A DNA stretch of 64,000 bases. Origin: Emticicia sp. C21 (GTDB lineage Bacteria > Bacteroidota > Bacteroidia > Cytophagales > Spirosomataceae). The position numbers and the translations under genes were made by a program. The notes under the pieces were generated by a model. That model was given only the letters and a program-made list of their open reading frames with translations. It did no database searches and was not told the origin of the DNA. Positions within the stretch are counted from its first letter, which is position 1, and each line of letters starts with the position of its first letter. The stretch covers positions 124,001 to 188,000 of the forward strand of contig NZ_QVMT01000012.1 of assembly GCF_003418935.1 (NCBI RefSeq), read 5' to 3'. This document shows positions 15,169 through 51,377 of the stretch, in pieces.

Positions 15169-15198
15169 ATGCAAACGTTATCGGGAACGTTGCCAAAA
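15169..15198 (-). promoter_or_regulatory. candidate LacI-family operator upstream of the kdgF operon
   Basis: A 30-bp element with core CGTTATCGGGAACGTT is an imperfect palindrome (half-sites built on AACGTT about a central TCGGG). It matches the element at 51228-51257, in front of kduD and the LacI-type regulator, at 27 of 30 positions. It lies 109 bp upstream of kdgF and in the upstream region of no other gene. The most likely ligand is the LacI-family protein encoded at 51378-52385. Confidence 0.72.
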
Positions 15199-15274
15199 TT
15201 GCACTTAGGTTTAATTGAATTGTAAATATCTAAGAAATCTGCCAAAAAGCATACGGAAAGTCTTTCATTCTCTA

Positions 15275-15312
15275 ATAAAAAAATCCTGATAGTTGAGGGG
15301 CTATCAGGATTT
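15275..15312 (-). terminator. Rho-independent terminator of the SusCD operon
   Basis: The arms at 15281-15292 (AAATCCTGATAG) and 15301-15312 pair perfectly over 12 bp with an 8-nt loop. On the minus strand the stem is followed directly by a T-run (15275-15283 region). It lies 38 bp past the stop of the small lipoprotein gene and separates the SusCD unit from the kdgF promoter region. Confidence 0.9.
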
Positions 15313-15349
15313 TCTGGAAACTATTTTGTTTTACTACATTAACTAACTC

Positions 15350-15826
15350 TTAATTTGTAGTAAGCGTAGCTGACTTTTGAGCCGACACCAGACCATTTTC
15401 TGCCACAATTTCAGCAAAGAAAACGCGTGCCGTTTTCGCTGTTGTCTGTGCGGTAATGGGTACAGCCAATACATAGTTTCTCAACGTAGCATCATACTTT
15501 TGTGTACCAGCCGGAATGGTAGCAACCAACGTTTGTGTCCCCGAAGCCGTAGGCGCCCAATATACCCTGAATTCTTTGACAGGTACTTCTGAGGTAAATT
15601 CGATATTAAAATTGGTATTAGTGCCCGGAGCTGCTGTCAAACCTGTCACTACTGAAGTATTGGCAGTAATCGTACGGGTTGTACCTATCCAAACCACCGA
15701 AATCTGTGCTACTTTGCCTTTGCTTGTGCTTATTTCACTCAATAAATCGGGTTCTTTGTAGCAGCCTGTCATGAAGACTGCTGAAAGCGCCAATAAAGTG
15801 AATAATACTATTCTTATATTTTTCAT
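15350..15826 (-). CDS. small SusCD-associated lipoprotein, function unknown
   Basis: 158 residues with a lipoprotein signal peptide and lipobox MTGC at Cys22. The mature part is beta-rich and Thr/Val/Ala-rich (TTRTITANTSVVTGLTAAPG, VFFAEIVAENGLVSAQ), consistent with one or two immunoglobulin/FnIII-like beta sandwiches. It is the third gene of the SusC-SusD unit (64 bp after SusD) and precedes the terminator, the position occupied in other PULs by surface glycan-binding proteins of the SusE/SusF or SGBP type. It is much shorter than those, so a binding role is inference only. Confidence 0.75.
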   Translation of the reverse strand: MKNIRIVLFTLLALSAVFMTGCYKEPDLLSEISTSKGKVAQISVVWIGTTRTITANTSVVTGLTAAPGTNTNFNIEFTSEVPVKEFRVYWAPTASGTQTLVATIPAGTQKYDATLRNYVLAVPITAQTTAKTARVFFAEIVAENGLVSAQKSATLTTN

Positions 15827-15889
15827 ATCTCTTGAAAATTAAAATTATTAAAGTTGTCAAAACCTGCTTTACTGAACTGGCAGGCAATC

Positions 15890-25200: not shown

Positions 25201-26409
25201 ATGAAAACTACCATTGAAATTCTATTCTGGATTTGCATAGGCTTAGTGATTTACACCTATGTAGGCTATGGTATCTTAGCCTGGATATTCGTTAAAATCA
25301 GAACAGCACTGGGCATCTCATTTCCTACGCCAAACGACCCCGATTTTCAACCCAGAGTTACCTTAGCAATACCTGCTTATAACGAAATGAGTTGTATTGA
25401 AGCGAAAGTAAAAAATTCTTTTGGCCTGGATTACCCGGCAGATAAGATAGATGTTTTGTTTGTAACCGAAGGCTCCAACGACGGTACAACTGAATACATT
25501 CAGTCTCTGATGTCTACTTATCCAAACCTGAAAATCATTGGTGGTAATGAGCGCAAAGGGAAGATAGAAGCCATGAACATGGCCGTTAAGACTATCCAGA
25601 CACCAATAGTTATTTTTACGGATGCAAACACTACCTTGAATAAATCAGTTATTAAAAATATTGTTCGCCATTTTAAAGATGAAAAGGTAGGAGCAGTAGC
25701 AGGCGAGAAACGTATTCAGGTAGATGATAGTGAGGCAGCCGCAGGAGCAGGTGAGGGTTTATACTGGAAATATGAGTCTTTCCTGAAAAAACTGGATACA
25801 AAGCTGTATTCAGTAGTAGGGGCAGCAGGCGAATTATTTGCCGTAAGAACAAATTTGCATGGTACGGTTGAAAAAGATACTTTGCTGGATGATTTCATGA
25901 TTTCATTAAGAGTAGCAGCCGATGGTTACCGGGTAATCTATGAGCCGGAAGCTTATGCTATCGAACGACCATCGTTTTCTATTCAGGATGAAATGAAACG
26001 TAAAATCCGTATTGCAGCAGGGGGATTCCAGTCAATTGCTCGTCTCGGATTTTTATGGAACATTTTTAAGTATGGATGGTTATCTTTTCAATATGTATCG
26101 CATAGAGCTATGAGATGGGCAGTAGCACCTTTTTGCCTGCCGCTTATTTTTGCATTAAATCTGGCTTTAGTATTGATAGAGGGAATGAACGAGCCTGTTA
26201 CTTTATATAAAGTCTTGTTTGTAGCACAGGTGTTATTTTATTTACTAGCCATTATTGGCTATTGGCTCGAAAATCAGAAGATCAGAATAAAGCTGCTTTT
26301 TGTGCCGTTTTACTTTTCATTCATGAACTATTGTGCTATCAGAGGTTACAATCGTTATCGCAATGGTATTACCTCAGGGATATGGGAAAAAGCCAAACGT
26401 GCGCAATAA
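25201..26409 (+). CDS. membrane GT2 glycosyltransferase (poly-GlcNAc/cellulose-synthase-like)
   Basis: 402 residues: one N-terminal helix (8-30), a cytosolic GT-A domain (VTLAIPAYNEMSCIEAKV, VIFTDANTTL as the DxD-type site, DDFMISLRV) and three C-terminal helices from about residue 290. The arrangement is that of IcaA/PgaC-like or hyaluronan-synthase-like processive GT2 enzymes, although the classical Q-x-x-R-W is not evident; the corresponding place reads KIRIAAGGFQS. A terminator directly follows, so it forms its own unit, possibly with the upstream signalling genes. It probably builds or extends an exopolysaccharide; the sugar is unknown. Confidence 0.85.
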   Translation: MKTTIEILFWICIGLVIYTYVGYGILAWIFVKIRTALGISFPTPNDPDFQPRVTLAIPAYNEMSCIEAKVKNSFGLDYPADKIDVLFVTEGSNDGTTEYIQSLMSTYPNLKIIGGNERKGKIEAMNMAVKTIQTPIVIFTDANTTLNKSVIKNIVRHFKDEKVGAVAGEKRIQVDDSEAAAGAGEGLYWKYESFLKKLDTKLYSVVGAAGELFAVRTNLHGTVEKDTLLDDFMISLRVAADGYRVIYEPEAYAIERPSFSIQDEMKRKIRIAAGGFQSIARLGFLWNIFKYGWLSFQYVSHRAMRWAVAPFCLPLIFALNLALVLIEGMNEPVTLYKVLFVAQVLFYLLAIIGYWLENQKIRIKLLFVPFYFSFMNYCAIRGYNRYRNGITSGIWEKAKRAQ

Positions 26410-26735
26410 AAGCGTTTGATATAATAAATTTCAGAAAAAACAGTTACTAATGCGTTGGTAGCTGTTTTTATTAGAAAAGTGTTAAAATGTATAATAAATC
26501 TTTGATTTTAAATCAATTGCTGTAAATTAGTCAAGATTTTCCTCCTTTTTATTGAATTCCTGCTGCCCCTTTAGACTCCGCTATTGAGTTGCTCAAAAGA
26601 ATATGATAGAAAATTTTTAATTTTTGATAAGTATTTCTTACAAAAATAAGAATAGGTATGATATTTGAAGAACTACCTGGTAAGCCCCCGGGCTTAGCTA
26701 ATATTGTTAGACGACAAACTATCGTTAGGAATAAA
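26410..26735. other. 326-bp intergenic region with terminator and exopolysaccharide promoter
   Basis: Apart from the terminator at 26436-26469, this region is AT-rich with no gene. An in-frame ATG at 26658 would extend the TolC-like protein by 26 residues, but that extension is not signal-peptide-like, whereas the ATG at 26736 opens a normal signal peptide. The promoter of the large exopolysaccharide operon should lie here. Confidence 0.55.
26436..26469 (+). terminator. Rho-independent terminator after the GT2 gene
   Basis: The arms AAAAACAGTTACTAA (26436-26450) and TTGGTAGCTGTTTTT (26455-26469) pair over 15 positions including two G-U pairs around a TGCG loop, with the T-run inside the 3' arm. 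It lies 27 bp past the GT2 stop. The A-run on the 5' side makes it potentially bidirectional. Confidence 0.8.
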
Positions 26736-27497
26736 ATGACGTGCTTTAAGAGATTTTTTACAGCAATAATTGCTGTATATATGCTTATTTATACACAAAC
26801 AGAGGTACATGCCCAGGTCACTTCTGTTGATGCTACCTTAGCAAAAGCCTTTGCTACCGATGAACTACTACCTTTTTTGATTGATGCAGCCTTAAAAAAT
26901 TCAGGAGAAGTAAAAAAGTTCGATAAAAGTATTCAATTAGCGCAAGCCAATCTGAAAATAAATAAGAACTCTATTTATAGTGCACTGGGCTTACAGGCAA
27001 GCTATGCTTATGGTACCAATTATGCAGCAGTAGCAGATGCTACAGCATCTACTAATTTTAACAGGCTTACTACCACCCAGACCGGTTTTTATAATTTAGG
27101 GGTAGGAATATCATTACCAATAACCACTGTCATTAACCGGAAACACCTGGTAAGATCAGCACAAATGCAGATGGAAGTCTTTGGTCATGAAAGAGAAACG
27201 GCCACAATGGTGGTAAAACAAGAGGTAATCAGGATGTATCAGGAGTTAAAATTATCTCAGAAATTATTAGGAATCAGCACAAACAATAAGCAATCAGCAC
27301 AATTGAATTATGATTTGGCAGAAAAAGAGTTTTTACAAGGGCAGTTGACTGTTGAACAGCTTTCAAGAGTACTTGAAATGAACAACAAGGCAAAGGTAGA
27401 GTATGAACAAACCGTAAACTTGTTTCAGACTAATCTTTTGCAATTAGAGACATTTACAGGGACAACTTTAGCATCATTATTAAAGAGAGTAAGATGA
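26736..27497 (+). CDS. half-length TolC-like outer-membrane efflux/export protein
   Basis: About 253 residues from the ATG at 26736, which gives signal peptide MTCFKRFFTAIIAVYMLIYTQTEVHAQ. The mature protein has long amphipathic helices (IDAALKNSGEVKKFDKSIQLAQANLKINK; QSAQLNYDLAEKEFLQGQ) around a beta segment (LGLQASYAYGTNY), the pattern of one OEP repeat of TolC proteins. Classical TolC has two repeats in about 450 residues, so this is half-length and could form a higher-order oligomer. Its stop overlaps the next start by 4 nt (ATGA), coupling it to the polysaccharide co-polymerase. No Wza/Poly_export gene is seen, so it may be the outer-membrane exit for the exopolysaccharide. Confidence 0.8.
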   Translation: MTCFKRFFTAIIAVYMLIYTQTEVHAQVTSVDATLAKAFATDELLPFLIDAALKNSGEVKKFDKSIQLAQANLKINKNSIYSALGLQASYAYGTNYAAVADATASTNFNRLTTTQTGFYNLGVGISLPITTVINRKHLVRSAQMQMEVFGHERETATMVVKQEVIRMYQELKLSQKLLGISTNNKQSAQLNYDLAEKEFLQGQLTVEQLSRVLEMNNKAKVEYEQTVNLFQTNLLQLETFTGTTLASLLKRVR

Positions 27498-29701
27498 GTT
27501 TTTTGCATTTTCTTAATCTGGTTTTTAAAAATCTTAAATGGTTGATAGCAGTACCTATACTATTGGCTGTGACGATATTTTATTTTACCCGAAAGGAGAA
27601 AAAAGTATATGCTTCAGAATCAACCATTTATACGGGTATTGCGTCAGGATACAGCCTGAGTGGAGAAATAAAGGCCGACTTCTTTTCTACCAGCAATGCC
27701 TTTGATAACCTATTGACGCTTATCCAGTCAAGAGATACCAAACAAGAGGTAGCCATATCCTTATTAGCAGAACATTTATCCCTTAAAAAACACGATCCGG
27801 AAGTGATGACCTGGAATGCTTACGACGAATTAAGTAAGCAGATTCCGGATAGTGTAAGAAAAATCATAGTAAAGCCTACTTTGGCTGAAACTCGCGCTGC
27901 GATAGTTAAATTGATGCAGAGTAGTGATGATAATCTCATTTATGAGCTTCTGAATTCTAAAGAACCATTCTATTCTTTAGACGCTTTAAACAAAATTGAG
28001 TCTAGCCGGATTAACTCCAGTGATTTAGTAAAACTATCTTACGAAACCAACGACCCCTTTATCTGTAAAAGGACATTGGAGTTGTTGGAGAGTATTTTCA
28101 TGGAAAAATACAAATCAATTAAAGGCGGGCAAACTACCTCAGTAGTAGATTATTTTGAGACACAGACCAGAAAAGCCTTTATCAAGCTTGATTCGGTAGA
28201 AAAACTCTTTCTGGAGTTCCACAAGAATAACGACATCATCAACTACTACGAGCAAACCAAGGCTGTAGCAGGAGAAAGAGAAGATTTATATGCCATGAAT
28301 CATGCCCTGGAAATGGACGAGTTGGCATCAAGCAAATCATTGGATAAAGTAAATGAAAGTATCAAAAATCGTGCATATCAGTCTATCTATGGCAGTGAAA
28401 TAATTGACCAGCGCCAGAAACTTTCAGACGTTTATAATAAAATTGCTAATAGTGAAATTGTCAATAAAGATGGCTCAAATAAGAGAGAATTAGATAGCTT
28501 GAGGAGTCTTGCAACTACTTACGAAGGTAATATTAGAAAATCGCTCAATAGCCTGAATCAGGAAACAAATACTCCGAATGGAATTCCGACAAAGAACGTA
28601 ATGGACGAATGGCTAAGAACTACCCTTGCTTTCGAGCAAAGTAAGGCAAAACTGGCCGTTATGGACAAACGTAAGAAAGAATTTACAGAAGAATACCGGA
28701 AGTTTGCCCCTTTAGGTGCCATTCTCAAAAAGATTGAGAGACAAATCAATGTGTCTGAACAAGAGTATCTCCAACTGCTTCATGACCTCAATCAGGCAAA
28801 ACTTTCTCAGCAAAATACGGAGCTTACTTCTAAACTGGATATTGTTGACCCACCGTTTTTGCCATTAAAACCTAATCCGTCGAAACGTATTATTTTAGTG
28901 ATAGTAGGTTTTATGGTAGGTTTTGTTTTGGTTCTGGCAGTCGTTATAGGCAGAGCATTTATTAATAAAACGCTATTAGAACCAGCAAGGGCCAAAAAAA
29001 TGGTCAATTTACCTCTATTAGGTATTTATCCATTATTGAATGATAATCCTGATTTTTTGAGACAAGCTGATTTAAGACTACTGCAACATGTACTTGCTAA
29101 GATTGATGGTCGTCAGGATACAATCTATTTAGGATTTATCAGTACGCAAAAAGGAGAGGGCAAGAGTACCATTATAGATATCTTGGAAAGACAATTGTTA
29201 GATCTGAATTATCATGTCGAAAAACAATTGTTGCTATCTAATACCGAGTATCGTCAATTGGGTATCAGTATGCCTCTTAGCTTGGCTGCGCATCAGTTAG
29301 AATGGGCAAGCGAGCAGGAGATTATCAAGCAACACGAAGATGTTGAATTAATGAAAATGCCGGGAGGAGAGTTGGTCAGAAGAAAAGAAAAAGACTTTGT
29401 ATTAGTAGAGTTTCCGGCATTAGAGAAAATGGTCATAAAGCCGGGGGTTTTTCCACCACTCAATCATTCTATTCTGGTCTGTAGAGCCAATCGTATCTGG
29501 GATAAAAAAGATAAAGAAATGGTATCTATTTTCACCCAGACAACCGGAAGCCAGCCGATGTTTATTCTGAATGGTGTAGAAACAGATTTTGCAGAAGAAT
29601 ATATCGGTGAAGTGCCAAAGAAGCGCAATGCACTCAGATCATTTATTAAGAAAATAGTAAAATTTGAATTTGGTAACAGAAAAACTGTCTATAGAGGATA
29701 A
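27494..29701 (+). CDS. Wzz/GumC-type polysaccharide co-polymerase with degenerate BY-kinase domain
   Basis: 735 residues. TM1 at about 14-32, a large periplasmic region with coiled-coil segments (residues 200-450) and TM2 at about 464-486 form a PCP-2a scaffold. The C-terminal cytoplasmic part contains a Walker A (STQKGEGKST, about residues 549-558), but the Walker A'/B asparates typical of bacterial tyrosine kinases appear changed (VLVEFPALEK in place of a V-x-I-D-T-P-P), and the C-terminus has a single Tyr rather than a Tyr cluster. It may therefore bind ATP without autophosphorylating. PCPs control chain length and couple polymerisation to export. It follows the TolC-like gene with overlapping codons and precedes wzy by 12 bp. 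Confidence 0.87.
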   Translation: MSFLHFLNLVFKNLKWLIAVPILLAVTIFYFTRKEKKVYASESTIYTGIASGYSLSGEIKADFFSTSNAFDNLLTLIQSRDTKQEVAISLLAEHLSLKKHDPEVMTWNAYDELSKQIPDSVRKIIVKPTLAETRAAIVKLMQSSDDNLIYELLNSKEPFYSLDALNKIESSRINSSDLVKLSYETNDPFICKRTLELLESIFMEKYKSIKGGQTTSVVDYFETQTRKAFIKLDSVEKLFLEFHKNNDIINYYEQTKAVAGEREDLYAMNHALEMDELASSKSLDKVNESIKNRAYQSIYGSEIIDQRQKLSDVYNKIANSEIVNKDGSNKRELDSLRSLATTYEGNIRKSLNSLNQETNTPNGIPTKNVMDEWLRTTLAFEQSKAKLAVMDKRKKEFTEEYRKFAPLGAILKKIERQINVSEQEYLQLLHDLNQAKLSQQNTELTSKLDIVDPPFLPLKPNPSKRIILVIVGFMVGFVLVLAVVIGRAFINKTLLEPARAKKMVNLPLLGIYPLLNDNPDFLRQADLRLLQHVLAKIDGRQDTIYLGFISTQKGEGKSTIIDILERQLLDLNYHVEKQLLLSNTEYRQLGISMPLSLAAHQLEWASEQEIIKQHEDVELMKMPGGELVRRKEKDFVLVEFPALEKMVIKPGVFPPLNHSILVCRANRIWDKKDKEMVSIFTQTTGSQPMFILNGVETDFAEEYIGEVPKKRNALRSFIKKIVKFEFGNRKTVYRG

Positions 29702-29713
29702 GTAGTCTCGCGA

Positions 29714-31189
29714 ATGGAAAGCAATATCTTTTATACTACTAACCGGAACATTATAAAGAATATTTGGGTGATACCCATTGTTCTTTTTACGGTTGCTTGT
29801 GGTTGGCTGATAGCCAAAAAAGGTATTGCTATAGGTGTAATTTTCCTGGTATTACCATTCATAGTAGGCTTTGTAACATTAGTGTTTCTGAAACCCCGCA
29901 TTGGCATGTTTACTTACATTGTCTATGTTTTTCTGATGCCCACTATAGGTAAACATGTGCCGGGATTGCAGGCTGGTTTAGGTACGGATGCTTTGCTCTT
30001 TCTAACGCTATTTGCGGTCTTATTCTTTAGGGGTGATAAGTTCAAATTCAGGTATATTAATAACGATTTGTTCTGGACAGCAGTCGTATGGTTTGTGATT
30101 ACTATACTGCAATTGGGCAACCCCGAGAGGCCCAGTATTCTGGGTTGGGTGTACGAAATGCGGTCGGCAACGCTATACTGGATATTAACTATCCCACTGG
30201 CTATCTTGCTCTTTTATAAAAAGTCAGATATTAATACATTCCTGACTATTATCATTGTGCTCTCTTTTATTGGAGCCATTTATGGGGTGAAGCAACAGAA
30301 ATTTGGGGTTGATGCTGCTGAAAACAGATGGTTGGAAGAAGGTCCTAAGAAAACACACGTTTTATTCGGGAAACTTCGTGTTTTTTCCTATTATTCAGAT
30401 GCCGGACAGTTTGGAGCGTCTCAGGCGCAGATTGCCATTATGTGTATCATTCTGGCAGTTGGTCCTTATACGAAGAAAAAGAAAGTAATCTATGCGATTT
30501 CAGGATTGGTGATTATGTATGGGATGCTTATTTCTGGTACACGGGGTGCTTTATTTGGCCTGGTAGGAGGGGGCTTCACCTTTCTGATACTGAGTAAGCA
30601 GATAAAAATTCTGCTCTTAGGAGCTATAGTGGGCGGAGGAGCTTTAGGAGTTCTGAAATATACCACCATAGGGAATCAGAATGCTGAAGTGAGGCGATTG
30701 CGTACATCATTAGACCCTAAAGATGCTTCTTTACAGGTGCGCTTTATTAACCAGAAAATACTAGCTGATTACATACGTAATAAGCCTTTTGGCGCGGGAG
30801 TAGGCACTATGGGTACATGGGGTACCATCTATAATAAGAATAAATACATTTCCACCATACCGCCAGACAGCCTTTATGTGAAAATATGGGGTATGTATGG
30901 CATTGTTGGGTTTCTTATCTGGTTCGGAATAATGATGTATATTATGGGTAAAAGTGCCGGAATCATCTGGAAAACCCGTGATCCAATTCTTAAAAACCAA
31001 CTGGTTTCTTTATGCTCGGGAGCCGCCGGAATCATGCTTTGTAGCTATGGTAACGAGGTGCTAAATGCCATGCCGTCAGAAGCCATCGTCTATACCAGTT
31101 TCGCGTTGATATGGTTGAGCCCGAGATGGGATACGCCTGAGCCCAAAATAGTAGAAGTTACAGAGAGCGAGGAATCGGTCTATGCCTGA
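29714..31189 (+). CDS. Wzy/O-antigen-ligase-like polysaccharide polymerase
   Basis: 491 residues with about twelve hydrophobic segments and a large periplasmic loop near residues 330-390 (IRNKPFGAGVGTMGTWG). The segment MLISGTRGALFGLVGGG (about residues 270-286) is the SGTRG-type motif common to the Wzy_C/O-antigen ligase superfamily. It would polymerise lipid-linked repeat units on the periplasmic side. It is placed between the co-polymerase and a GT2 gene in the exopolysaccharide operon, which supports the polymerase over the ligase assignment. Confidence 0.85.
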   Translation: MESNIFYTTNRNIIKNIWVIPIVLFTVACGWLIAKKGIAIGVIFLVLPFIVGFVTLVFLKPRIGMFTYIVYVFLMPTIGKHVPGLQAGLGTDALLFLTLFAVLFFRGDKFKFRYINNDLFWTAVVWFVITILQLGNPERPSILGWVYEMRSATLYWILTIPLAILLFYKKSDINTFLTIIIVLSFIGAIYGVKQQKFGVDAAENRWLEEGPKKTHVLFGKLRVFSYYSDAGQFGASQAQIAIMCIILAVGPYTKKKKVIYAISGLVIMYGMLISGTRGALFGLVGGGFTFLILSKQIKILLLGAIVGGGALGVLKYTTIGNQNAEVRRLRTSLDPKDASLQVRFINQKILADYIRNKPFGAGVGTMGTWGTIYNKNKYISTIPPDSLYVKIWGMYGIVGFLIWFGIMMYIMGKSAGIIWKTRDPILKNQLVSLCSGAAGIMLCSYGNEVLNAMPSEAIVYTSFALIWLSPRWDTPEPKIVEVTESEESVYA

Positions 31190-31202
31190 TAATCAATCCT
31201 AA

Positions 31203-31219: not shown

Positions 31220-31266
31220 AGATATAAATAACCTGTAATCACTTTTGTGTAAAACCTGATAATACT

Positions 31267-36019: not shown

Positions 36020-36026
36020 GATCAGC

Positions 36027-37160
36027 CTAAATGTTCAGGATTTCATTATAAATATTCACTATTTGTTCAGCAGTCTGTTTCCACGAAAACAACTTAACTC
36101 TTTGGAGACCATAAGCTATCACTTTTGTTCTCATGTCAGTATCATTTAATAACCTCACTATTTTTTCGGCAATTTCTTCGGGTTGAGTCGGGTCTACCAG
36201 CGCAGTCCCATTTCCGGCTATTTCAGGCATGGCAGAAGTATTGCTTGTAATCAGCGGCGTGCCACACTGCATAGCTTCCAGAATCGGAATTCCGAAACTT
36301 TCTCTCAGCGATGGATACAAAAACAGTTGAGCCAGTTTATACAATTTGGGCAGTTCCTGATTGACAACATAGCCAATAAGCATGATATATTTGAGCAGAT
36401 GCTCGTTGTTTTGCTCTTTTAATAAAGGCAATAAATGCTCTATCTTAAAATCGGTAATAACCAGAGTGAAATCTAATTGCTTTCTTTCATAGAGCAATCC
36501 TAAAGTCCTGATAACATTAGGCAAATTCTTTTTGGGGTCTGTATTGCCTAAAAATAGCACAAATCGCTCAGGCAAATTCATCCGTTTCCTAAAGTCCTGC
36601 AATTCCTCTGCACTATATTCATCGCCAAAATGGTTGCCGCAGGCATTATAAACAGTTCTTACTTTTTCTTCGGGCAAATTCAATTTTTCAATAATTCTAT
36701 TACGTTCATAGTCGCTCACCGTAACAATCATCGAGGCCTTTTTTGCTATTTGAGGTACGTTCCATCGCCGATAAATACCACCTAGTTTCTGATAAAAAAC
36801 TCCGTTATTACCTGTCTGTTTTTCTAAATAAATAATATCATGAATAGTAACCACCAGGGGAACATTGGTACTGATAGGAGCAGTATTGCTTGTGCAATGC
36901 AGCAAATCTATTTTATCTTTTTTGATTTCGCGGGGTAAGATATATTGTTCCCAGATAGGATATAAAGCCGGACCACTTAATTTTACCCTGACGTTTTTGG
37001 TGGAGTGGAGCGTATCTACATCTTTATAAGGCTGAGCATACGCAAAGTATTCGTGAGGAGTATTGATTTGCTGTAACTGGCGTAAAATTTCAAGTATGAC
37101 AATATCCATGCCATGCTTTTTCTGTCGAAAAATTCGTTGAGCCTCTATTCCTATACGCAT
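36027..37160 (-). CDS. GT4 glycosyltransferase
   Basis: About 377 residues starting at the ATG at 37160 (MRIGIEAQRIFRQKKHGMD, the normal GT4 start; the longer frame to 37205 adds 15 residues without family similarity). The C-terminal GT-B domain has VLFLGNTDPKKNLPNVIRTL, IMLIGYVVNQELPKLYKLAQLFLYPSLRESFGIPILEAMQCGTPLITSN, in which the E-x7-E motif (ESFGIPILE) coordinates the nucleotide sugar. It retains anomeric configuration, likely mannosyl- or glucosyl-type. It runs convergent to the GT14 gene and is the distal gene of the minus-strand glycosyltransferase group. Confidence 0.9.
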   Translation of the reverse strand: MRIGIEAQRIFRQKKHGMDIVILEILRQLQQINTPHEYFAYAQPYKDVDTLHSTKNVRVKLSGPALYPIWEQYILPREIKKDKIDLLHCTSNTAPISTNVPLVVTIHDIIYLEKQTGNNGVFYQKLGGIYRRWNVPQIAKKASMIVTVSDYERNRIIEKLNLPEEKVRTVYNACGNHFGDEYSAEELQDFRKRMNLPERFVLFLGNTDPKKNLPNVIRTLGLLYERKQLDFTLVITDFKIEHLLPLLKEQNNEHLLKYIMLIGYVVNQELPKLYKLAQLFLYPSLRESFGIPILEAMQCGTPLITSNTSAMPEIAGNGTALVDPTQPEEIAEKIVRLLNDTDMRTKVIAYGLQRVKLFSWKQTAEQIVNIYNEILNI

Positions 37161-37245
37161 CTGGTTTGCAAAGTATACTTGTGTAGATACAAAAACAAAA
37201 CGCACTCAAAAGTTCCTTTAAAGATAATTGTAATTGCAAACTATC

Positions 37246-38163
37246 TCATGATAAACTTACTTTATCATGAACATCTTTTGAGCTATTGCTGAAATTCCAG
37301 ACGAAACCCTGCCAGAAAGCTTTCAGATGTGGCCAGTCACGTTTGAGTATATATCCCAACATATTTTTAGGTACAGCAACAAAGAAATAATAAATAAACA
37401 TCAGAAATCTTTGAAATCCGAAGGTATTGCGACGTAAATAAAGTAGCCTGTTTCGACTGTAATAATGCGTTTTTAAGGTAGAACCTTTCCCGGTACTCAT
37501 TGATTCTTTATGCCAGATTCTACTTTTGGGCTCATACCAGATAGTATAACCTGCCCGCTTAAATCTTTCACAATAGTCCATCTCTTCGTAATATAAAAAG
37601 AAAAGCTCGGCCATCATGCCTACTTTCTCAAAAGCCTCTCTCGAATACATCATAGCTGCACCATGTGCTCTTGAAGTTGGTCGGGCCACATCGTGCTGTC
37701 CCTGATCTTTTTCAAAATGACCAATAGAGAATCCTCGGCCTGTAATAGGATTGATAGGCAGAAATCCGGCAAACTGAATAGTATCCGGTTCGTCGAAATA
37801 CAAAATTTTCGGACAAATGACACCAATCTTTTTGTCACTTTCCATACGGTTAACCAACGGTTCCAAAAATCCGGGGTCCACTTCTGTGTCATTGTTCAAT
37901 AGAAAAAAGTAATCACCCGTGGCTATTTCCATGCCACGATTATTACCTCCGGCAAAACCTAAATTAGCGCCTGTCTCAAGATATTTTATCCAAGGAAAAT
38001 CAATAGGTAGCTGATGCCCGGGTTCTTTATTGCTATTATCAACCACAATCACCTCAATAGATGGATAGGTGATTTTCTCCAAAGAACGAAGTAATTCGGC
38101 AGTAACAGCGGTACCATTAAAATTGACGGTAATTATCGAAACTTTAGGTGTTTTGCTTGGCAT
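37246..38163 (-). CDS. GT2 rhamnosyltransferase-like glycosyltransferase
   Basis: 305 residues with a GT-A domain: VSIITVNFNGTAVTAELLRSL, EVIVVDNSNKEPG, ANLGFAGGNNRGMEIATGDYFFLLNNDTEV (the G-N-N-x-G and N-N-D signatures of WbbL/RfbF-like enzymes), then FFLYYEEMDYCERFKRAGY and a C-terminal amphipathic region YSRNRLLYLRR. The pattern is that of dTDP-rhamnosyl- or galactofuranosyl-transferases. It is preceded by a 110-bp gap carrying a perfect 36-bp palindrome. Confidence 0.88.
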   Translation of the reverse strand: MPSKTPKVSIITVNFNGTAVTAELLRSLEKITYPSIEVIVVDNSNKEPGHQLPIDFPWIKYLETGANLGFAGGNNRGMEIATGDYFFLLNNDTEVDPGFLEPLVNRMESDKKIGVICPKILYFDEPDTIQFAGFLPINPITGRGFSIGHFEKDQGQHDVARPTSRAHGAAMMYSREAFEKVGMMAELFFLYYEEMDYCERFKRAGYTIWYEPKSRIWHKESMSTGKGSTLKTHYYSRNRLLYLRRNTFGFQRFLMFIYYFFVAVPKNMLGYILKRDWPHLKAFWQGFVWNFSNSSKDVHDKVSLS

Positions 38164-38206
38164 AAAAGACTAAACTAAATGTTTTATCCTTAAATGTTTT
38201 TCTATA

Positions 38207-38242
38207 TTATTTCGGTTTACCAGATCTGGTAAACCGAAATAA
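38207..38242. repeat. perfect 36-bp palindrome between sugar transferase and GT2 genes
   Basis: Each strand reads TTATTTCGGTTTACCAGA followed by its exact complement, with no loop and no mismatch in 18 base pairs. It starts 31 bp past the stop of the sugar transferase gene. Neither strand has a T-run after the stem, so a classical terminator is not well supported; an operator, a cruciform, or a processing/termination hairpin are options. Confidence 0.9.
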
Positions 38243-38272
38243 ATAATGCTCAATACAGGAAATGAAGTAGTC

Positions 38273-39469
38273 TTATACGTTCTCTGATTGTAATAAAGCA
38301 GGGAAAGTCATAAAGAAAATTTTCATATCATATTTGAAGGAGAAGTTTCTGGCGTATTCAATATCTAGTTGAATGCGTTCTTCTTCGGTCATATCTTTCT
38401 TACCTTTTCCTCTTTTGGTTACCTGCCATAACCCGGTTAAACCTCCCGGCCCTGCAAAGCGCTCAATGTATTCGTCAGTAGTTAATTTTTCCGCCTCATA
38501 AAGCGGCAAAGGACGGTTGCCCACCAACGACATATCTCCTAAGAAAATATTGAACAACTGTGGAAGCTCGTCAATACTGCTATTCCGTAAGAATTTGCCC
38601 AATCTGGTGATACGAGGGTCATTCTGGAATTTCATGAAAGCTACTTTCTCTTTTTTCTCAGTCAGATACATTTTTTCACAAACCATTTCACCATCCAGAT
38701 ATAATTGTTGCTGACAAGTACCTATACCTGCGCAGGTTTCACAAAGTCCGGCTACCTGTTTCACTTCCGTATTTTTGGTGTACATATTCAGCGAGCCCAT
38801 GTTTTTAATCAACTTATCGGCATCGGTGCGCATCGTACGGAATTTATAGATACTGAAAATTTTATATCCGGCACCTACGCGTTTTGATAAATAAATAACA
38901 GGTCCTTTTGAATCAAGTTTGATTAAAATGGCCACAATTATTAAAAGGGGCGAAAGTAATAATAAGGCTAGCCCGGTAGTAGAAACATCTATAAATCTTT
39001 TCCAGAGCGGAATCTTTACATCCAGAATACTTGCCTTGGTTTGTTGCATCGCTTTGTAATGACGACGCTTAATAAAATATTCAAGACGGGTAATTAAATC
39101 TCCACTGCTGAAATCGCTTGGATATATATCGTCGCCACCTTTTTCATGTAATTCTTTCAGTAAACCATGTGTAATATGGTCGCTGGTAAGAATGACCGGA
39201 AGCGCTCTTGTCCAGGCCTGGCTACGGATGGTTTCCAGAAATTTTATACCACCACTACTTCTGCCGATGACAACAGCATCAGGCGGGTAAGTATTTTTTA
39301 GATAGTCAAGACAAGCTTCAGCGCTATTCATGACCTTTACATGAATCTTCTGACCGAATCTCTTCAGAAAATCCACCACGGCTTTATCGTCTCTTTCTAC
39401 CAGAATTATCTTAATCGGAAGTTTTTCTTCGTCTGTTATTGTCGTAGTATTGGGTACAGTATTATTCAT
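38273..39469 (-). CDS. priming sugar transferase (WcaJ/PglC-type) with N-terminal pseudo-receiver and Cys4 insert
   Basis: 398 residues with an unusual build. Residues 18-130 fold like a response-regulator receiver (IKIILVERDD, ALPVILTSDH, GGDDIYPSDF), but the phosphoacceptor position after beta-3 is Gly69 (AVVIGRSSGG) and the conserved Lys is lost. Then come TM LALLLLSPLLIIVAILI and the polyprenyl-phosphate hexose-1-phosphate transferase domain: KFRTMRTDAD, NDPRITRLGKFLRNSSIDELPQ and LVGNRPLPLYE. Between RTDAD and NDPRI an insert holds Cys243, 246, 252 and 264 (C-x2-C-x5-C-x11-C), suggestive of a metal site. The enzyme starts the exopolysaccharide repeat on undecaprenyl phosphate. It lies 15 bp after a free receiver gene. 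Confidence 0.9.
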   Translation of the reverse strand: MNNTVPNTTTITDEEKLPIKIILVERDDKAVVDFLKRFGQKIHVKVMNSAEACLDYLKNTYPPDAVVIGRSSGGIKFLETIRSQAWTRALPVILTSDHITHGLLKELHEKGGDDIYPSDFSSGDLITRLEYFIKRRHYKAMQQTKASILDVKIPLWKRFIDVSTTGLALLLLSPLLIIVAILIKLDSKGPVIYLSKRVGAGYKIFSIYKFRTMRTDADKLIKNMGSLNMYTKNTEVKQVAGLCETCAGIGTCQQQLYLDGEMVCEKMYLTEKKEKVAFMKFQNDPRITRLGKFLRNSSIDELPQLFNIFLGDMSLVGNRPLPLYEAEKLTTDEYIERFAGPGGLTGLWQVTKRGKGKKDMTEEERIQLDIEYARNFSFKYDMKIFFMTFPALLQSENV

Positions 39470-39484
39470 ATACCAAAAATGAGT

Positions 39485-39889
39485 TTAATAGGCATCAACT
39501 ATAGATTTTGGTTTTACACGGCGCAAAATCGCTTTTATTTTAGCGTGTACCTCCATAGGGTTGAATGGCTTCAACATAAAGTCGTCAGCACCAATGTTCA
39601 GACATTCAATACGCTCTTTACTTTCGTCAGTTCCGGAAAGTATAATAATTGGTAAATCTGAATATAAATTACTTGCTCTGATTACTTTGGTAAATTCTTT
39701 CCCGTTTAGGTTTGGCATATTTAGGTCAGCAATGATAAAATCGGTATCATTTCCGGCTTCCAGCCAGTTCATGCCTTCCATTCCATCATTCTTGGCTGTT
39801 ACTTCAAATTCTTTATTCAGGAAATGTTCTAAAACTTTTCTAATACTTGCCTCATCATCAATTATCAGAAGTTTTAATTTTTTGTTCAT
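39485..39889 (-). CDS. single-domain response regulator (receiver only)
   Basis: 134 residues, one receiver domain with all key residues: D11/D12, phosphoacceptor Asp55 in FIIADLNMPN, Ser85, and Lys107 in FMLKPFNP. It has no output domain; the 15-residue tail is RRVKPKSIVDAY-like. It is immediately upstream (15 bp) of the pseudo-receiver-fused sugar transferase, so the two are co-expressed. A partner such as the free HPt at 24763 or the hybrid kinase could phosphorylate it, and docking to the pseudo-receiver is an attractive inference. Confidence 0.92.
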   Translation of the reverse strand: MNKKLKLLIIDDEASIRKVLEHFLNKEFEVTAKNDGMEGMNWLEAGNDTDFIIADLNMPNLNGKEFTKVIRASNLYSDLPIIILSGTDESKERIECLNIGADDFMLKPFNPMEVHAKIKAILRRVKPKSIVDAY

Positions 39890-40208
39890 CGTCGTTATAT
39901 TTTTGAGAATATGTAGAAAAGCATACTAATTGCCGGATATGTAATCTTATTGAATGAAAATGAACCGCTATATTAAGTTAAAAGAAATGTTTGGGTTCTA
40001 GGTAATAAACAGACAATTACAATTACCGGAATTACTATTTGCTATGATTACAGTTTTAAAAAATGATCTTTCAATCAGTATATTTTACAGCAATTATTTT
40101 GCCAAATCGTATGACAATTTCGTTTTTCTAAGTAGTAAACAGATGGGTTTTACAGTATTACAGCCTCACTTAATCAAGTGTAAAGTTTCTGTTATAAATA
40201 TAGTAAGA
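39890..40208. other. 319-bp intergenic region
   Basis: AT-rich, with the start of the receiver gene on the left and the stop of a GT4 gene on the right, both minus strand. The promoter for receiver and sugar transferase should lie here. I see no clear terminator, repeat, operator or small gene. Confidence 0.5.
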
Positions 40209-41336
40209 TTATTGTTGTTTATACAATTCATCATAAATTTTTTCAACTTCCCGGGTCATGCGCTCCACATTATAATCTCTTTCCACAGTCAATCTGGCTT
40301 CGCTACTCAAACGGTCTCTTAAGGCTTTGTCATTCGCTAAACGAATCAGTGCATTTGCCAATTCATCCGGATTCATAACGGGTACTAATAAGCCGTTTTT
40401 CTCATGTACAATTACCTCTTTTGTGCCATCAATGGCTGTAGCTACCACAGCTTTTGCCATAGCCATTGCTTCTAACAAAGCAATAGGCAAACCTTCCCAC
40501 AAAGATGGCAGACAGAAGATATCAATACCATGCAATACATCAGGTATATCTTGTCTGAATTTTTCAAAAATAACTCTTGAGTTAATTTTCAATTCATCCG
40601 CCATCTTCAATACTGCTTCTTTACTATCACCATCGCCGATAATCAGGAATTTTATTTTGCTATCTGCCGGAATTTTGGCAATGGCTTTTAAGAACGTAAA
40701 AGGGTCTTTCTGAGAGGTCATACGGGCAATAAAACCTACCAAAACCTCATCTTCTGCTATATTAAACTCCTTTCTTATATCTTTAAAAGATTTGGTCAGG
40801 TCGAACTTTGCCAGATTTATGCCATTGGTAATGACAGTAGCATTCTTCATGCTGAACCGCTTAGCTCCATCTTCATAATTGCTATTAGATACACAAATGG
40901 TCTTTTTTGCATTCTTGACTAAGAATTTTTCTCCAAAGGTTCGCACGGTCTTTACCAAAAAATTCTGGTCGTTATGAAAAGACCAGCCATGAACAGTATA
41001 TAATAGTGGAATGCCTAATTTTTTTGCCGCAGAAAAAGTATTGGAATTGGCTCTTGTACCATGCGCATGTACAATCTCTATTTTCTCTTCTTCCAGAATG
41101 TCCTTTACTTTCCCCCAAACAGACCTGTCAAATGGTTTTTCGGTATAAATTACGTACGTTTTTACACCCATTTCTTTCATTTTATCTACCATTGGGCCTT
41201 CTGTAAACGAAAGCACGATAGACTCGTATTTGTCTTTATTGAGTGTACTCACTAAATCAAGCACATGGGTTTCTCCGCCACCTATTTTACCCTGTCTGAT
41301 TGTTTGAAGAATTCTGATTTTTTTATTTTCTGGCAT
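40209..41336 (-). CDS. GT4 glycosyltransferase
   Basis: 375 residues. The N-terminus RILQTIRQGKIGGGETHVLDLVSTL carries the glycine-rich acceptor loop of GT4 enzymes. The C-terminal donor domain has VLVGFIARMTSQKDPFTFLKAIAKI, FLIIGDGDSKEAVLKMADEL, VIFEKFRQDIPDVLHGIDIFCLPSLWEGLPIALLEAMAMAKAVVAT; the E-x7-E motif is EGLPIALLE. A retaining cytosolic transferase, probably for the same exopolysaccharide as the neighbouring genes. It lies 319 bp upstream of the receiver gene in the same orientation. Confidence 0.92.
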   Translation of the reverse strand: MPENKKIRILQTIRQGKIGGGETHVLDLVSTLNKDKYESIVLSFTEGPMVDKMKEMGVKTYVIYTEKPFDRSVWGKVKDILEEEKIEIVHAHGTRANSNTFSAAKKLGIPLLYTVHGWSFHNDQNFLVKTVRTFGEKFLVKNAKKTICVSNSNYEDGAKRFSMKNATVITNGINLAKFDLTKSFKDIRKEFNIAEDEVLVGFIARMTSQKDPFTFLKAIAKIPADSKIKFLIIGDGDSKEAVLKMADELKINSRVIFEKFRQDIPDVLHGIDIFCLPSLWEGLPIALLEAMAMAKAVVATAIDGTKEVIVHEKNGLLVPVMNPDELANALIRLANDKALRDRLSSEARLTVERDYNVERMTREVEKIYDELYKQQ

Positions 41337-48041: not shown

Positions 48042-48044
48042 TAA

Positions 48045-48096: not shown

Positions 48097-49284
48097 TTAA
48101 AACAATTTCTGCTTATTTTTCAAACGCTGATAGCGTAACAAGCCTTCCAGGAAATAATAATCAGCATATACTAATGGTACATCAATTTCTGATTTAAGCG
48201 GTTTTGCACCTACTGAATGTTTCAGAATAAAATGGTTGTTTTCGCCTAAATTAGCTTTGTAGGTTGGAGTTGTCAAGCTCTCTAACATAGTTTCGGCAGC
48301 ATCAAAATAGGTTTTGCTTTTTGCTTTGCCAACATAAGTACTTAGCTCAAATAAGGCTGATGCAGTAATAGCACCTGCAGAAGCATCACGCTCTTCGTTC
48401 GGGATATTTGGTGCATTGAAATCCCAGTAAGGAATTTTGTCTTTTGGTAAATTCGGATGATTCAGATAGAAATCAGCAATTTTCTCTGCTTGTGCCAGAT
48501 ACTTTTTGTCTTTGGTTTCTCTGTACATATCTGTATAACCATACAAAGCCCAGGCCTGACCTCTCGCCCATGCCGATTCATCGGCATATCCCTGATGCGT
48601 ACCTTTTTTCAATACTTCACCGTTTTCACCATAAGCAATTACGTGGTAGCTGCTATTATCAGGACGGAAATGGTTTTTGATGGTATTATCCGCATGGGTA
48701 ATGCTAAGATTAGAAAACTCCTTATTGCCTGATTCGCGTGATGCCCAGAATAAAAATTCAAGGTTCATCATATTGTCAACAATCACCGGATACTTATAGC
48801 CTTTCCAGTTATTCCATGATTTAATTAAGCCTACTTTAGGGTCAAAACGAGTCGCTAACGACTTCGCTCCGGTAAGCATAATTTCCTTATACTTTGGATT
48901 TTTGGTCAGGCGATAACCATTACCAAAAGGGCAATATAACATGAAGCCTAAATCGTGCGTGCCTGTGTTAAACTGCTCTTTTTCAACGGCCATTGTCCAT
49001 TTGTCAGCCGCCTCTTTCCATTTCTGTTCTTTGGTTTGTTCAAAAATGTACCATAGCGAACCACCGAAAAAACCACTACACCACCAACTGGTTGGCATAT
49101 CTCTTGGCGAACCATCAGGATTGGTCGATTGTGGCGTTTTGGTAATATCAGGGTGGCTTTTAAGCATGCCTTCATATTGCTGAGCAGCAAAGGCAAATTC
49201 TTTTGCTACATCAATCTTCTTCTGGCCAAAAAGAATTGAAGAAACAAAAAGTAACAAAATTGTCAATTTAGAGGTAAGTCTCAT
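48097..49284 (-). CDS. GH88 unsaturated glucuronyl hydrolase
   Basis: 395 residues with signal peptide ending near FG-Q21. The (alpha/alpha)6 barrel has the two catalytic Asp candidates at D111 (NTGTHDLGFMLYCPFG) and D170 (VDNMMNLEFLFWAS), spaced like Asp88 and Asp149 of Bacillus UGL. Other landmarks are WWCSGFFGGSLWYIFE and GYADESAWARGQAWALYGYTDMYR. The enzyme removes the 4,5-unsaturated uronate from lyase-made di- and oligosaccharides, giving 5-keto-4-deoxyuronate for KduI and KduD. It is 46 bp downstream of kduI in the same orientation. A lyase must act first, and none is in the window. Confidence 0.93.
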   Translation of the reverse strand: MRLTSKLTILLLFVSSILFGQKKIDVAKEFAFAAQQYEGMLKSHPDITKTPQSTNPDGSPRDMPTSWWCSGFFGGSLWYIFEQTKEQKWKEAADKWTMAVEKEQFNTGTHDLGFMLYCPFGNGYRLTKNPKYKEIMLTGAKSLATRFDPKVGLIKSWNNWKGYKYPVIVDNMMNLEFLFWASRESGNKEFSNLSITHADNTIKNHFRPDNSSYHVIAYGENGEVLKKGTHQGYADESAWARGQAWALYGYTDMYRETKDKKYLAQAEKIADFYLNHPNLPKDKIPYWDFNAPNIPNEERDASAGAITASALFELSTYVGKAKSKTYFDAAETMLESLTTPTYKANLGENNHFILKHSVGAKPLKSEIDVPLVYADYYFLEGLLRYQRLKNKQKLF

Positions 49285-49329: not shown

Positions 49330-50160
49330 TTAGCGCAACTCAGAAATCGGAATAAAGTCCATATCTGCAAACGATTGATTTTCACCAGCCATCCCCCAGA
49401 TAAATGAGTAGTTTGAAGTACCACAACCAGAATGCACTGACCACGGCGGAGAAATAATAGCCTGATGGTTGCTTATCCATAAATGACGGGTCTCTTGCGG
49501 TTGCCCCATCAGGTGCAATACCCTATGATTTTCAGGTACATCAAAATAACAATAAGCCTCCATACGGCGATCATGCGTATGCGATGGCATGGTATTCCAC
49601 ACACTACCCGTTTGTAGCACCGTTAAACCCATTACCAGCTGGCAACTTCTGATACCATCCAAATGAATATATTTATAAATAATCCGTTGGTTAGCTGTCT
49701 CAACCGCACCCATATTGGCCGGAGAAGCCTCTTCTTTGGTCATTAATCGGGTTGGATAGGCAGCATGTGAGGGAGCAGAAAGAATAAAGTATTTCGCAGG
49801 ATTGCTGCTATCCACACTTTCAAAAACTACTTTCTGAGCACCTTTGCCTACATATAAACAGTCTAGTTTATTAATATTGAAAGCCTCACCATCGACAGTA
49901 ATTTTGCCATTGCCAGCTACATTAATAATCCCGATTTCTCTTCTTTCCAGAAAATAGTCAGATTTCAGTTCATCATAATTGCCTAATTCAACTGCTTCGT
50001 TCTTAGGCATAATACCACCCAAAATCATGCGGTCATAGTGAGAATAAACAATATGTATCTGGTCAGGTGTAAATAAAGTTTCCACCAGAAAATTGTTTCT
50101 CAATTCGGCTGTATTCATACCCGCCGTTTCCTTAGGGCTACTTTCATATCTTGCTTGCAT
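49330..50160 (-). CDS. kduI: 5-dehydro-4-deoxy-D-glucuronate isomerase
   Basis: 276 residues, the standard KduI length. Zinc ligands H194, H196 and E201 are in the MPSHTHDRRMEAYCYF segment and H243 in PPWSVHSGCG, matching the positions in the E. coli enzyme. YSHYDRMILGGIMP at residues 39-52 is also characteristic. It converts 5-keto-4-deoxyuronate to 2,5-diketo-3-deoxygluconate in the cytoplasm. It lies 187 bp downstream of kduD with an intervening inverted-repeat region, so it may be partly independently controlled. Confidence 0.97.
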   Translation of the reverse strand: MQARYESSPKETAGMNTAELRNNFLVETLFTPDQIHIVYSHYDRMILGGIMPKNEAVELGNYDELKSDYFLERREIGIINVAGNGKITVDGEAFNINKLDCLYVGKGAQKVVFESVDSSNPAKYFILSAPSHAAYPTRLMTKEEASPANMGAVETANQRIIYKYIHLDGIRSCQLVMGLTVLQTGSVWNTMPSHTHDRRMEAYCYFDVPENHRVLHLMGQPQETRHLWISNHQAIISPPWSVHSGCGTSNYSFIWGMAGENQSFADMDFIPISELR

Positions 50161-50172
50161 ATCTTCAAATAA

Positions 50173-50346
50173 TTTAGTGATTTAGTGAATTTGTGATTGA
50201 GTGATTTTGTCCTGAACTATGATTTAGCTGATTTTAGGATTTCTCTGAATTTATAATTAGTTGTTTATTTATTCCATAATATTTCTCTATGTTCTGCCCT
50301 AAGCTAATTAATCACTCATTCACTAAATCACACAATCACTCAATGA
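50173..50346. repeat. long imperfect inverted repeat built of TAGTGAT-like units
   Basis: The left block (50173-50206) is a run of TTTAGTGA / TTGTGATTGAGTGAT-type units, and the right block (50310-50346) carries the reverse complement (ACTAAATCACACAATCACTCAA). The two blocks match over about 22-30 bp, with a 7-8-nt length difference, and enclose about 100 bp. The units look like a slippage-derived 7-8-nt repeat, placed between kduI and kduD. Confidence 0.7.
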
Positions 50347-50347
50347 T

Positions 50348-51103
50348 TTACCTCCCCATCCATCCCCCATCCACGGTCAGGATAGTGCCATGTACATAGT
50401 CAGAGGCAGAGGAAGCCAGAAATACTGCCGGGCCTTTAAAGTCCTCTGTTTCTCCCCAGCGTCCGGCCGGGATACGGGCTAATATGGAGGTACTTCTATC
50501 AGGGTCATTTCTGAGTGCTTCTGTATTATCTGTGGCAATGTAACCAGGGGCTATGGCATTTACATTAACGCCTTTTGATGCCCATTCATTGGCTAATGCT
50601 TTTACCAAACTTCCGATAGCGCCTTTGCTGGCAGCATACCCGGGTACATTGATACCACCCTGGAAGGTAAGTAATGAAGCTGTAAAAATGATCTTACCCG
50701 ATTTTTGCTCTATCATTTTGGCACCAATTTCGCGCGCCAGAATAAACTGAGAATCAAGGTTAATCGTCATTACTTTGTCCCAATACTCGTCCGGGTGTTC
50801 CGCCGCAGGCTTACGCATAATAGTACCTGCATTGTTCACAAGAATATCAATTGTTGGGAAATCAACCTTTACTTGTCGAATAAACGCATAAAGGCTCTCA
50901 CGATTACCGAAATCAGCCTGGTACGCCTTGAAATTTCTTTGTAAACCCTTAACGGTGAGTTCTACTGCACTATTTTCTAATTCGATACTAGCAGATACTC
51001 CAATGATATCAGCACCTGCTTCTGCAAGTCCGATAGCTATGGCTTTGCCTATGCCTTTGTTACAGCCTGTTACAAGCGCAACTTTGCCTGAAAGATTAAA
51101 CAT
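50348..51103 (-). CDS. kduD: 2-dehydro-3-deoxy-D-gluconate 5-dehydrogenase
   Basis: 251 residues of the SDR family, the usual KduD length. It has the cofactor motif GCNKGIGKA (14-22), the NNAG motif (90-93), and the catalytic set Ser143, Tyr156 and Lys160 in PGYAASKGA. The C-terminal VFLASSASDYVHGTILTVDGGWMGR is typical of KduD. It reduces 2,5-diketo-3-deoxygluconate to KDG using NADH. It is the first gene of the GH88/kduI/kduD set and faces the LacI-type regulator across a 274-bp gap with the candidate operator. Confidence 0.95.
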   Translation of the reverse strand: MFNLSGKVALVTGCNKGIGKAIAIGLAEAGADIIGVSASIELENSAVELTVKGLQRNFKAYQADFGNRESLYAFIRQVKVDFPTIDILVNNAGTIMRKPAAEHPDEYWDKVMTINLDSQFILAREIGAKMIEQKSGKIIFTASLLTFQGGINVPGYAASKGAIGSLVKALANEWASKGVNVNAIAPGYIATDNTEALRNDPDRSTSILARIPAGRWGETEDFKGPAVFLASSASDYVHGTILTVDGGWMGR

Positions 51104-51377
51104 TTTATGAGAGTAATAGAATTATTCAAAGATAAAGCCTGAAATCTGACTAGTAAAATCAATCAAATATACCTACGAAGATGTAAAACTAACGTAGGAA
51201 GAAACAAATAAATAATTGACTTTATTTATGCAATCGTTGTCGGGAACGTTACCAAAAAGGCTTGTTCATACCATTGGTACCGATAATTTTAATATCTTTG
51301 ATTGTCGTTCATACTTCTGGTTGTTTGTGTGTTCTACAACTGACCAATCATAAAATTGTATTTTACTTGTATTAATC
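51104..51377. promoter_or_regulatory. divergent promoter region of kduD and the LacI-type regulator
   Basis: This 274-bp region, with no gene, contains the candidate operator at 51228-51257 about midway between the two start codons (125 bp from kduD, about 121 bp from the regulator). A single site there can control both promoters, a common arrangement for autoregulated LacI-family genes. Confidence 0.7.
51228..51257. promoter_or_regulatory. candidate LacI-family operator between kduD and its regulator
   Basis: The core CGTTGTCGGGAACGTT is nearly the same as that at 15169-15198: 27 of 30 bases are identical, and the differences are at only three positions. The imperfect palindrome with AACGTT-type half-sites is in the size range for LacI-family dimers. 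Placement between the regulator and its neighbour gene supports autoregulation. Confidence 0.75.

Follow-up and report, generated by a model that had tools for sequence, protein, structure and literature searches.

The operators of CcpA and PurR, both of the LacI family, are single CpG-centred dyads, and we know of them only as isolated sites, not as tandems spaced by 12 bp. Here we describe an element of 31 bases that occurs twice, 36 kb apart, in a 64,000-nucleotide stretch of the Emticicia sp. C21 genome (contig NZ_QVMT01000012.1, positions 124,001 to 188,000; hereafter the window), once beside a gene for a LacI-family protein (51378..52385, plus strand) and once before a distant operon. 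Judging from sequence comparisons, we consider it probable, at roughly 0.83, that both copies are operators of this protein, that they consist of tandem 12-bp sites of which the first, unit 1, is primary, and that they mediate repression of pectin genes until an intermediate of the Kdu route releases the repressor.

Closely spaced LacI-family sites have been described before. An analysis of 1303 LacI-family regulators reports intersite distances peaking at 13, 22, and 32 bp and, upstream of 110 operons, overlapping sites with a spacing of about 13 bp, with E. coli GntR at gntKU as the precedent; it leaves the binding mode open (PMC4052901). Control of galacturonate, glucuronate, and 2-keto-3-deoxygluconate (KDG) genes is predicted for the Bacteroides LacI-family proteins KdgR (BT0487), UxaR (BT0824), and UxuR (BT1434) (PMC3878776, PMC4052901). 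In Algoriphagus marincola HL-49, the LacI-family protein UxuR2 is predicted to control two separate hexuronate loci (PMC5507952).

Anatomy and rarity of the two elements

The distal copy (15168..15198) lies before the kdgF operon, which runs on the minus strand, and the regulator-proximal copy (51227..51257) between kduD on the minus strand and lacI on the plus strand; both are putative composite operators, given here on the plus strand. A sequence-only reading of the window had reported agreement at 27 of 30 positions between 15169-15198 and 51228-51257. Sequence comparison bore this out, with three of the 30 positions differing and the identity reaching one base further left. The same reading took the element for one palindrome, roughly 30 bp long and built of AACGTT-type half-sites, a description that we replace. 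By sequence reading, the 30 bp as a whole do not make up one palindrome; instead, two 12-mers, GCAAWCGTTRTC and GGGAACGTTRCC, adjoin directly in each element, with centres 12 bp apart. Every 12-mer fits the CG-centred dyad GNNAWCGWTNNC exactly on its own, its outer letters being not fully symmetric, so that an even palindrome with a central CG is present unit by unit. We take GNNAWCGWTNNC to be a CpG-centred dyad of the LacI/PurR/CcpA kind. AACGTT is the core of a complete dyad, and therefore each element holds two full operator units, not two half-sites: a predicted tandem of two complete CpG-centred LacI-type operators.

In the distal copy, unit 1 (GCAAACGTTATC) occupies 15171..15182 and unit 2 (GGGAACGTTGCC) 15183..15194, with its centre 12 bp from that of unit 1; in the proximal copy, unit 1 (GCAATCGTTGTC) occupies 51230..51241 and unit 2 (GGGAACGTTACC) 51242..51253, all four on the plus strand and all exact matches. 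The window contains just five exact matches to GNNAWCGWTNNC: four are these units, and the fifth, at 45420, falls within a gene. The repeat unit of 12 compares with 16-22 nt for published LacI-type motifs (PMC4052901).

The element is rare. Merged into a 31-base IUPAC pattern and searched with up to three mismatches, it matched twice in the window and never in 100 dinucleotide shuffles. A 25-bp core, again with up to three mismatches, matched exactly twice in the whole genome (6.64 Mb in 33 contigs, 99.94% complete), both times in the window, and the reversed control gave no match, although these searches used mismatch patterns, which weaker operators may have escaped. The concern that the sequence might recur at many unrelated loci was thus not borne out. 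Looser patterns gave no excess: the single-unit pattern CGGGAACGTTNCCAAA with three mismatches found 66 forward and 63 reverse places versus 95 and 113 in the reversed control, and the doublet consensus with up to two mismatches found 19 places in this genome versus 79 in the control, which is why we made no use of these places. The distances from element to start codon are 110 bp for kdgF, 126 bp for kduD, and 125 bp for lacI, and both elements fall in the span expected of LacI operators, about 140 to 30 bp before the start codon.

The proposed binder is a LacI-family regulator of 335 amino acids with a TTG start (Pfam LacI PF00356, E value 5.7e-13). Its helix-turn-helix, above the cut-off, occupies residues 5-50 at the N-terminus, and its sensor domain matched Peripla_BP_1 (PF00532, 2.1e-34) and PF13377 (5.5e-32). 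The similarity to solved LacI-family repressors extends over the full length, the nearest structures being CcpA and PurR (CcpA 3oqm, E value 1.1e-56, residues 4-333). The nearest named relatives of the protein come from E. agri (90%) and Emticicia sp. BO119 (89%), Emticicia being a genus of the Cytophagales.

Conservation of the element with its LacI gene

We searched 58 genomes, including that of strain C21, for the element and for the LacI protein (G handles denote genomes, L handles loci). With up to three mismatches, the element occurred in 22 of the 58, and the control gave no match in any genome. All ten other genomes of the genus carried one or two copies, and nine of the ten kept a copy between the LacI ortholog and kduD, contrary to the possibility that relatives would not conserve the site; the remaining genome, G004, has a completeness of 81% and yielded no close LacI ortholog. 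Searching for the protein identified a LacI ortholog at 57% identity or more in 22 of the 58 genomes. This cut-off was placed at the observed gap between 57 and 50%, the next best protein having 50% (a second protein of G034) and the best of any other genome 49%. The element was present in 19 of the 22 genomes with an ortholog versus 3 of the 36 without one (Fisher p 2e-9, uncorrected for kinship). The ortholog-bearing genomes lacking a match were G013 and G024, which hold diverged versions with five and four mismatches, respectively, and G032.

Of 80 named LacI loci, 35 encode proteins with 57-90% identity. At 27 of the 35, a 12-bp doublet lies no more than 500 bp before the LacI gene. The other 45 loci have no doublet, and no pair at any spacing other than 12, up to 60 bp, occurred in the 80 upstream regions. 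The recognition-helix stretch STSTV is present in all 35 orthologs. Five of the eight orthologs without a doublet (four from Lacihabitans and one from a Leadbetterella metagenome bin) retain only unit 1, in the form of an exact 12-mer; for L268 this was read in locus L097 of the same genome. In 34 unique divergon sequences, 19 of the 24 operator columns, in both units, carry 1.7-2.0 bits, a measure that is partly circular because resemblance to the pattern was the basis for choosing the rows. Also conserved in these sequences are an A-rich tract on the kduD side and the hexamer TATTTG (51205..51210, minus strand), 19-24 nt beyond unit 1 on the same side. TATTTG may be part of a promoter: it is either the -33 box or the -7 box, and in the latter case a TTG in unit 1 would supply the -33 element.

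As a separate observation, the codon aligned with the first codon of the LacI gene is TTG in 22 and GTG in nine of the 35 orthologs (51378; L242-L274, L276, L277). Three further orthologs have TTG or GTG at most three codons upstream, and an ATG lies within three codons in L272 only. The weak start codon thus seems to be conserved; perhaps it keeps the repressor scarce.

Gene maps, the nearest genes, and Pfam scans of 27 site neighbours identified the genes beside the copies in relatives. Copies precede kduD, kdgF-like, glycoside hydrolase (GH) 105, GH28/GDSL, pectic acid lyase, and GH88 genes, as well as SusC-type, PfkB, and mannitol-dehydrogenase-type genes. These are the genes needed to degrade pectin and galacturonate. 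Less obvious fits near copies are GH43-like, GH44, GH65, and amidase genes, genes for extracytoplasmic function (ECF) sigma factors (L082, L086), and, in two genera, the gene for a regulator of the GntR type; two neighbouring genes at L063 matched no Pfam family. In G011 (L083:9901) and G015 (L088:9931), a mismatch-free copy separates a gene for a glycosidase (GH88 or GH65) from a divergent gene for a GntR-family regulator of 346 or 344 amino acids, an arrangement in which a regulator cascade is possible.

The orientation of the copies is nearly uniform. At all 17 LacI-flanking sites the motif lies on the LacI strand, and at 12 of the 13 distal sites serving one gene only it is antisense to the gene served. 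The exception, L063 (the second site of G031), has the same orientation as the nearest downstream gene, 574 bp away. This count covers L091:13044, despite its overlap with a small open reading frame (ORF), and leaves aside contig-end and divergent sites and L094 (G038), a probable chance match.

The proposal that a single LacI regulon spans both clusters of the window thereby holds up as a prediction: copies lie beside LacI and kduD in relatives, they precede pectin genes, and they co-occur with the LacI ortholog. We regard this putative regulon as well supported.

The 12-bp spacing among LacI paralogs

We examined 100 regions of 700 bp upstream of LacI paralogs, in the order of the protein-search list; set aside were 22 orthologs, nine paralogs (L053-L060 and one in L098), one contig-end gene, and weaker paralogs further down. 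Pairs of CG-centred 12-mers, with up to one mismatch each, numbered 43 at a spacing of 12 bp, in 37 of the 100 regions, and zero at both 11 and 13 bp. Six pairs were spaced by 24 bp, and all other spacings up to 60 bp totalled 11, none with more than two. The mean of 20 dinucleotide shuffles was 0.0 pairs at 12 bp. Exact 12-mers numbered 54, of which 42 had a partner at 12 bp (up to two mismatches) and 12 were isolated, compared with 0.1 paired and 3.1 isolated in a mononucleotide-shuffled control. Counted by region, 32 had paired exact sites, 10 isolated ones only, and 58 no exact 12-mer. The doublet is the common form wherever a recognisable site exists; 63 of the 100 regions show none. Grouped by eye, the paired paralogs form at least six groups by N-terminal sequence and position.

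Genome-wide, the exact doublet occurred at 68 places in 31 of the 58 genomes versus three in the control, triplets being counted twice, and the same pattern at 13-bp spacing occurred at two places versus two in the control. A search of 296 genomes of the phylum gave 27 exact-doublet places versus two in the control within the own family and order (12 genomes), 18 versus 12 in the rest of the same class (61 genomes), and 28 versus 22 in the rest of the phylum (223 genomes). Enrichment of the exact doublet is therefore seen in the order, is weak at best in the class, and is absent from the remaining phylum. Fourteen of the 27 order-level places lie in one genome, G221 (C1), far above any other in this search; the excess may reflect an expanded regulon or several LacI regulons.

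Longer and variant arrays also occur. Triplets with 12-bp repeats lie upstream of one LacI paralog group (L171, L180, L183, and L191). In G013, L095:2315-2354 and L095:8255-8294 are identical perfect palindromes of at least 40 bp, with three 12-bp units and A-tracts on both sides. The symmetric triplet at L095:8256 has a divergent SusC-type gene on one side and a gene for a pectic acid lyase on the other. This placement agrees with the idea that unit 1 and its A-tract face a regulated gene. Counting against that idea, the identical copy at L095:2316 (2316-2353) is faced by one gene start only: it faces the 3′ end of a SusD gene and lies upstream of a minus-strand ORF running off the locus. Strain C21 itself has a second doublet type, with one mismatch each, at G000:C5:79309 and G000:C12:619914, of which one precedes a LacI paralog by 295 bp and the other lies elsewhere, perhaps a two-site regulon of that paralog.

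Predicted regulation of the pectin genes and relation to known systems

The LacI protein most likely represses the catabolism of pectin and unsaturated galacturonate. At the proximal locus its targets would be lacI itself and, on the minus strand, genes for a KduD-type dehydrogenase (50348..51103; best NCBIfam match TIGR01832 kduD at 323.7 bits, just below the cut-off of 338.85), the 5-dehydro-4-deoxy-D-glucuronate isomerase KduI (49330..50160; NF002091, 441 bits, cut-off 250), and a GH88-like candidate unsaturated-uronyl hydrolase (48097..49284; PF07470, E value 8.8e-9). Its targets 36 kb away would be a minus-strand operon that begins with a KdgF-like cupin (14701..15060; Pfam Cupin_2, 7.7e-13; no NCBIfam match, the name being given by context) and continues with an esterase-like alpha/beta hydrolase (13525..14685; AXE1, 6.1e-7), a DUF6786 protein (12322..13518), a GH95 enzyme (9901..12294), and a GH88/GH105-type hydrolase with DUF4350 (7946..9862). 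The last of these matches Pfam GH88; its GH105 label comes from the sequence-only reading. The uronate isomerase gene uxaC (6212..7612, minus strand) follows 333 bp past the preceding gene, and since this gap holds no doublet, its membership in the operon is uncertain. GH106 and major facilitator superfamily transporter genes were also identified in the window. Between the two pectin loci, 25201-41336 carries polysaccharide-synthesis genes (glycosyl transferases, O-antigen-ligase-like, and flippase-like).

The SusCD operon had been placed outside the regulon. For this genome, and as far as sequence can tell, the exclusion stands, because the gap upstream of susC holds no doublet and a strong hairpin with a T-run (15278..15315, minus strand; -18.2 kcal/mol, z -5.29, equalled by none of 200 shuffles) ends the susC-susD-lipoprotein run upstream of the distal element; it does not extend to some relatives, where copies precede SusC-type genes (L082, L091, L095). 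An automated sigma-70/terminator scan listed no terminator and no useful promoter. The susC-susD run faces genes for a PAS histidine kinase and a LytTR response regulator.

A repressor dimer on unit 1 (GCAAWCGTTRTC, beside the catabolic promoter) would occupy the primary site. Unit 1 is the likely primary site because it is promoter-proximal and is the one that Lacihabitans keeps. A second dimer would bind the auxiliary unit 2, either alongside the first or by replacing it, and an intermediate of the KduI/KduD route (DKI, DKII, or KDG) would release the repressor. Binding, repression, effector, and the sharing of 24 bp by two dimers are what we infer from these comparisons. In LacI-family complexes, the recognition segments TNNC and GNNA of such units adjoin without overlap, and the kink at each CpG points away from the protein, so that neighbouring dimers would be splayed apart; with this geometry, double occupancy of the doublet is conceivable.

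Several observations weigh against this interpretation. The 12-bp spacing overlaps the canonical LacI-DNA contact zone, and overlapping sites about 13 bp apart are described as hard to reconcile with known structures (PMC4052901). Eight of the 35 orthologs lack a doublet; beyond the five that keep unit 1, L251 has one 12-mer with one mismatch at a similar distance, and L255 and L272 have no 12-mer at up to one mismatch. Three genomes carry a match and no close ortholog: G004 (81% complete), G014 (LacI at 48%), and G038, where the match lies inside an ORF and no LacI homolog was found. Because of kinship among the genomes, their orthologs do not count as independent, and some of the named loci come from genomes that also bear G handles. 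Finally, one of the two promoter readings puts the operator upstream of the -33 box, compatible with activation.

A serious rival to two simultaneous dimers is that the overlapping sites are filled one at a time, unit 2 only raising effective affinity or residence time. We hold this to be possible, at odds clearly short of even. One unit suffices in Lacihabitans, and canonical contact zones overlap at such spacing, as PMC4052901 says of about 13 bp. Against it stands the exactness of the 12 bp, with no pairs at 11 or 13 bp and 68 versus two places for 12- and 13-bp doublets, which suggests a geometric constraint that mere rebinding would not need.

Alternatively, the 24 bp might form one long operator whose dyad is centred on the C/G junction between the units, with one dimer bound in an unusual manner. 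The junction is itself a CG, and some paralog doublets are perfect 24-bp palindromes about it (G025, G022). However, the 24-mer is asymmetric in the present ortholog group, each 12-mer fits the CpG-centred consensus, in Lacihabitans only unit 1 is kept, as an exact 12-mer, and triplets have the same 12-bp period (the six pairs at 24 bp and the arrays of three in G013), and we consider this reading unlikely.

Slightly less likely still, the LacI protein could activate the catabolic operons from the operator position. With TATTTG as the -33 box, the operator would sit immediately before the promoter; with TATTTG as the -7 box, it would overlap the -33 region, where repressors usually sit. Most LacI-family members are repressors. 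It is very improbable that another regulator, GntR-type or global, owns the element and that its place beside lacI is incidental, as the mismatch-free copies far from kdu genes and beside a GntR-type gene (L083 in G011, L088 in G015) and the copies flanking ECF sigma factor genes (L082, L086) could suggest, given that neither of the two copies in strain C21 lies beside a GntR-type gene, that the element co-occurs with the LacI ortholog, and that other LacI paralogs have doublet variants of their own upstream.

Repression from tandem sites by the LacI protein may exemplify a more general arrangement. We tentatively propose, with a little less than even confidence, that Cytophagales LacI repressors as a class form side-by-side arrays with a fixed 12-bp period, two or three dimers sharing 24-36 bp and the CpG kinks splaying neighbours. 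If so, the pectin repressor of the window would be one instance. We know of no solved LacI-DNA complex with this assembly mode. The clade is well suited to testing it, since it offers exact spacing, clean units, triplets, and a genus from which the second unit has been lost. In strain C21, a predicted pectin regulon is now assigned to an uncharacterised LacI protein, and since only two operators were found in the genome, the genetics should be simple. The remark in PMC4052901 that canonical structures do not explain overlapping LacI sites thereby gains a testable system.

The known systems resemble this one in different respects. Functionally, the Bacteroides proteins KdgR, UxaR, and UxuR are a parallel, likened by predicted role only (PMC3878776). 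UxuR2 comes from the same phylum and is likewise predicted to control two loci, and differs in gene content, with a TRAP transporter and GH109 (PMC5507952). At E. coli gntKU, two CpG-centred sites likewise overlap closely upstream of a sugar operon (PMC4052901). Our own reading by eye of the region upstream of gntK, with the GntR consensus as a guide, puts 13 bp between the centres. The class with about 13 bp differs from the present sites, which are exactly 12 bp apart, form pairs and triplets, and belong to several paralogous LacI genes of one clade; "about 13" may include some at 12 (PMC4052901). A search of titles and abstract starts in the open-access literature found no description of a LacI operator in 12-bp tandem. 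CcpA and PurR, the best solved relatives of the LacI protein, have isolated operators, in contrast to the 12-bp tandem here. Thus, close overlap of LacI sites was already known, and what is new is a fixed 12-bp array that recurs across Cytophagales LacI paralogs.

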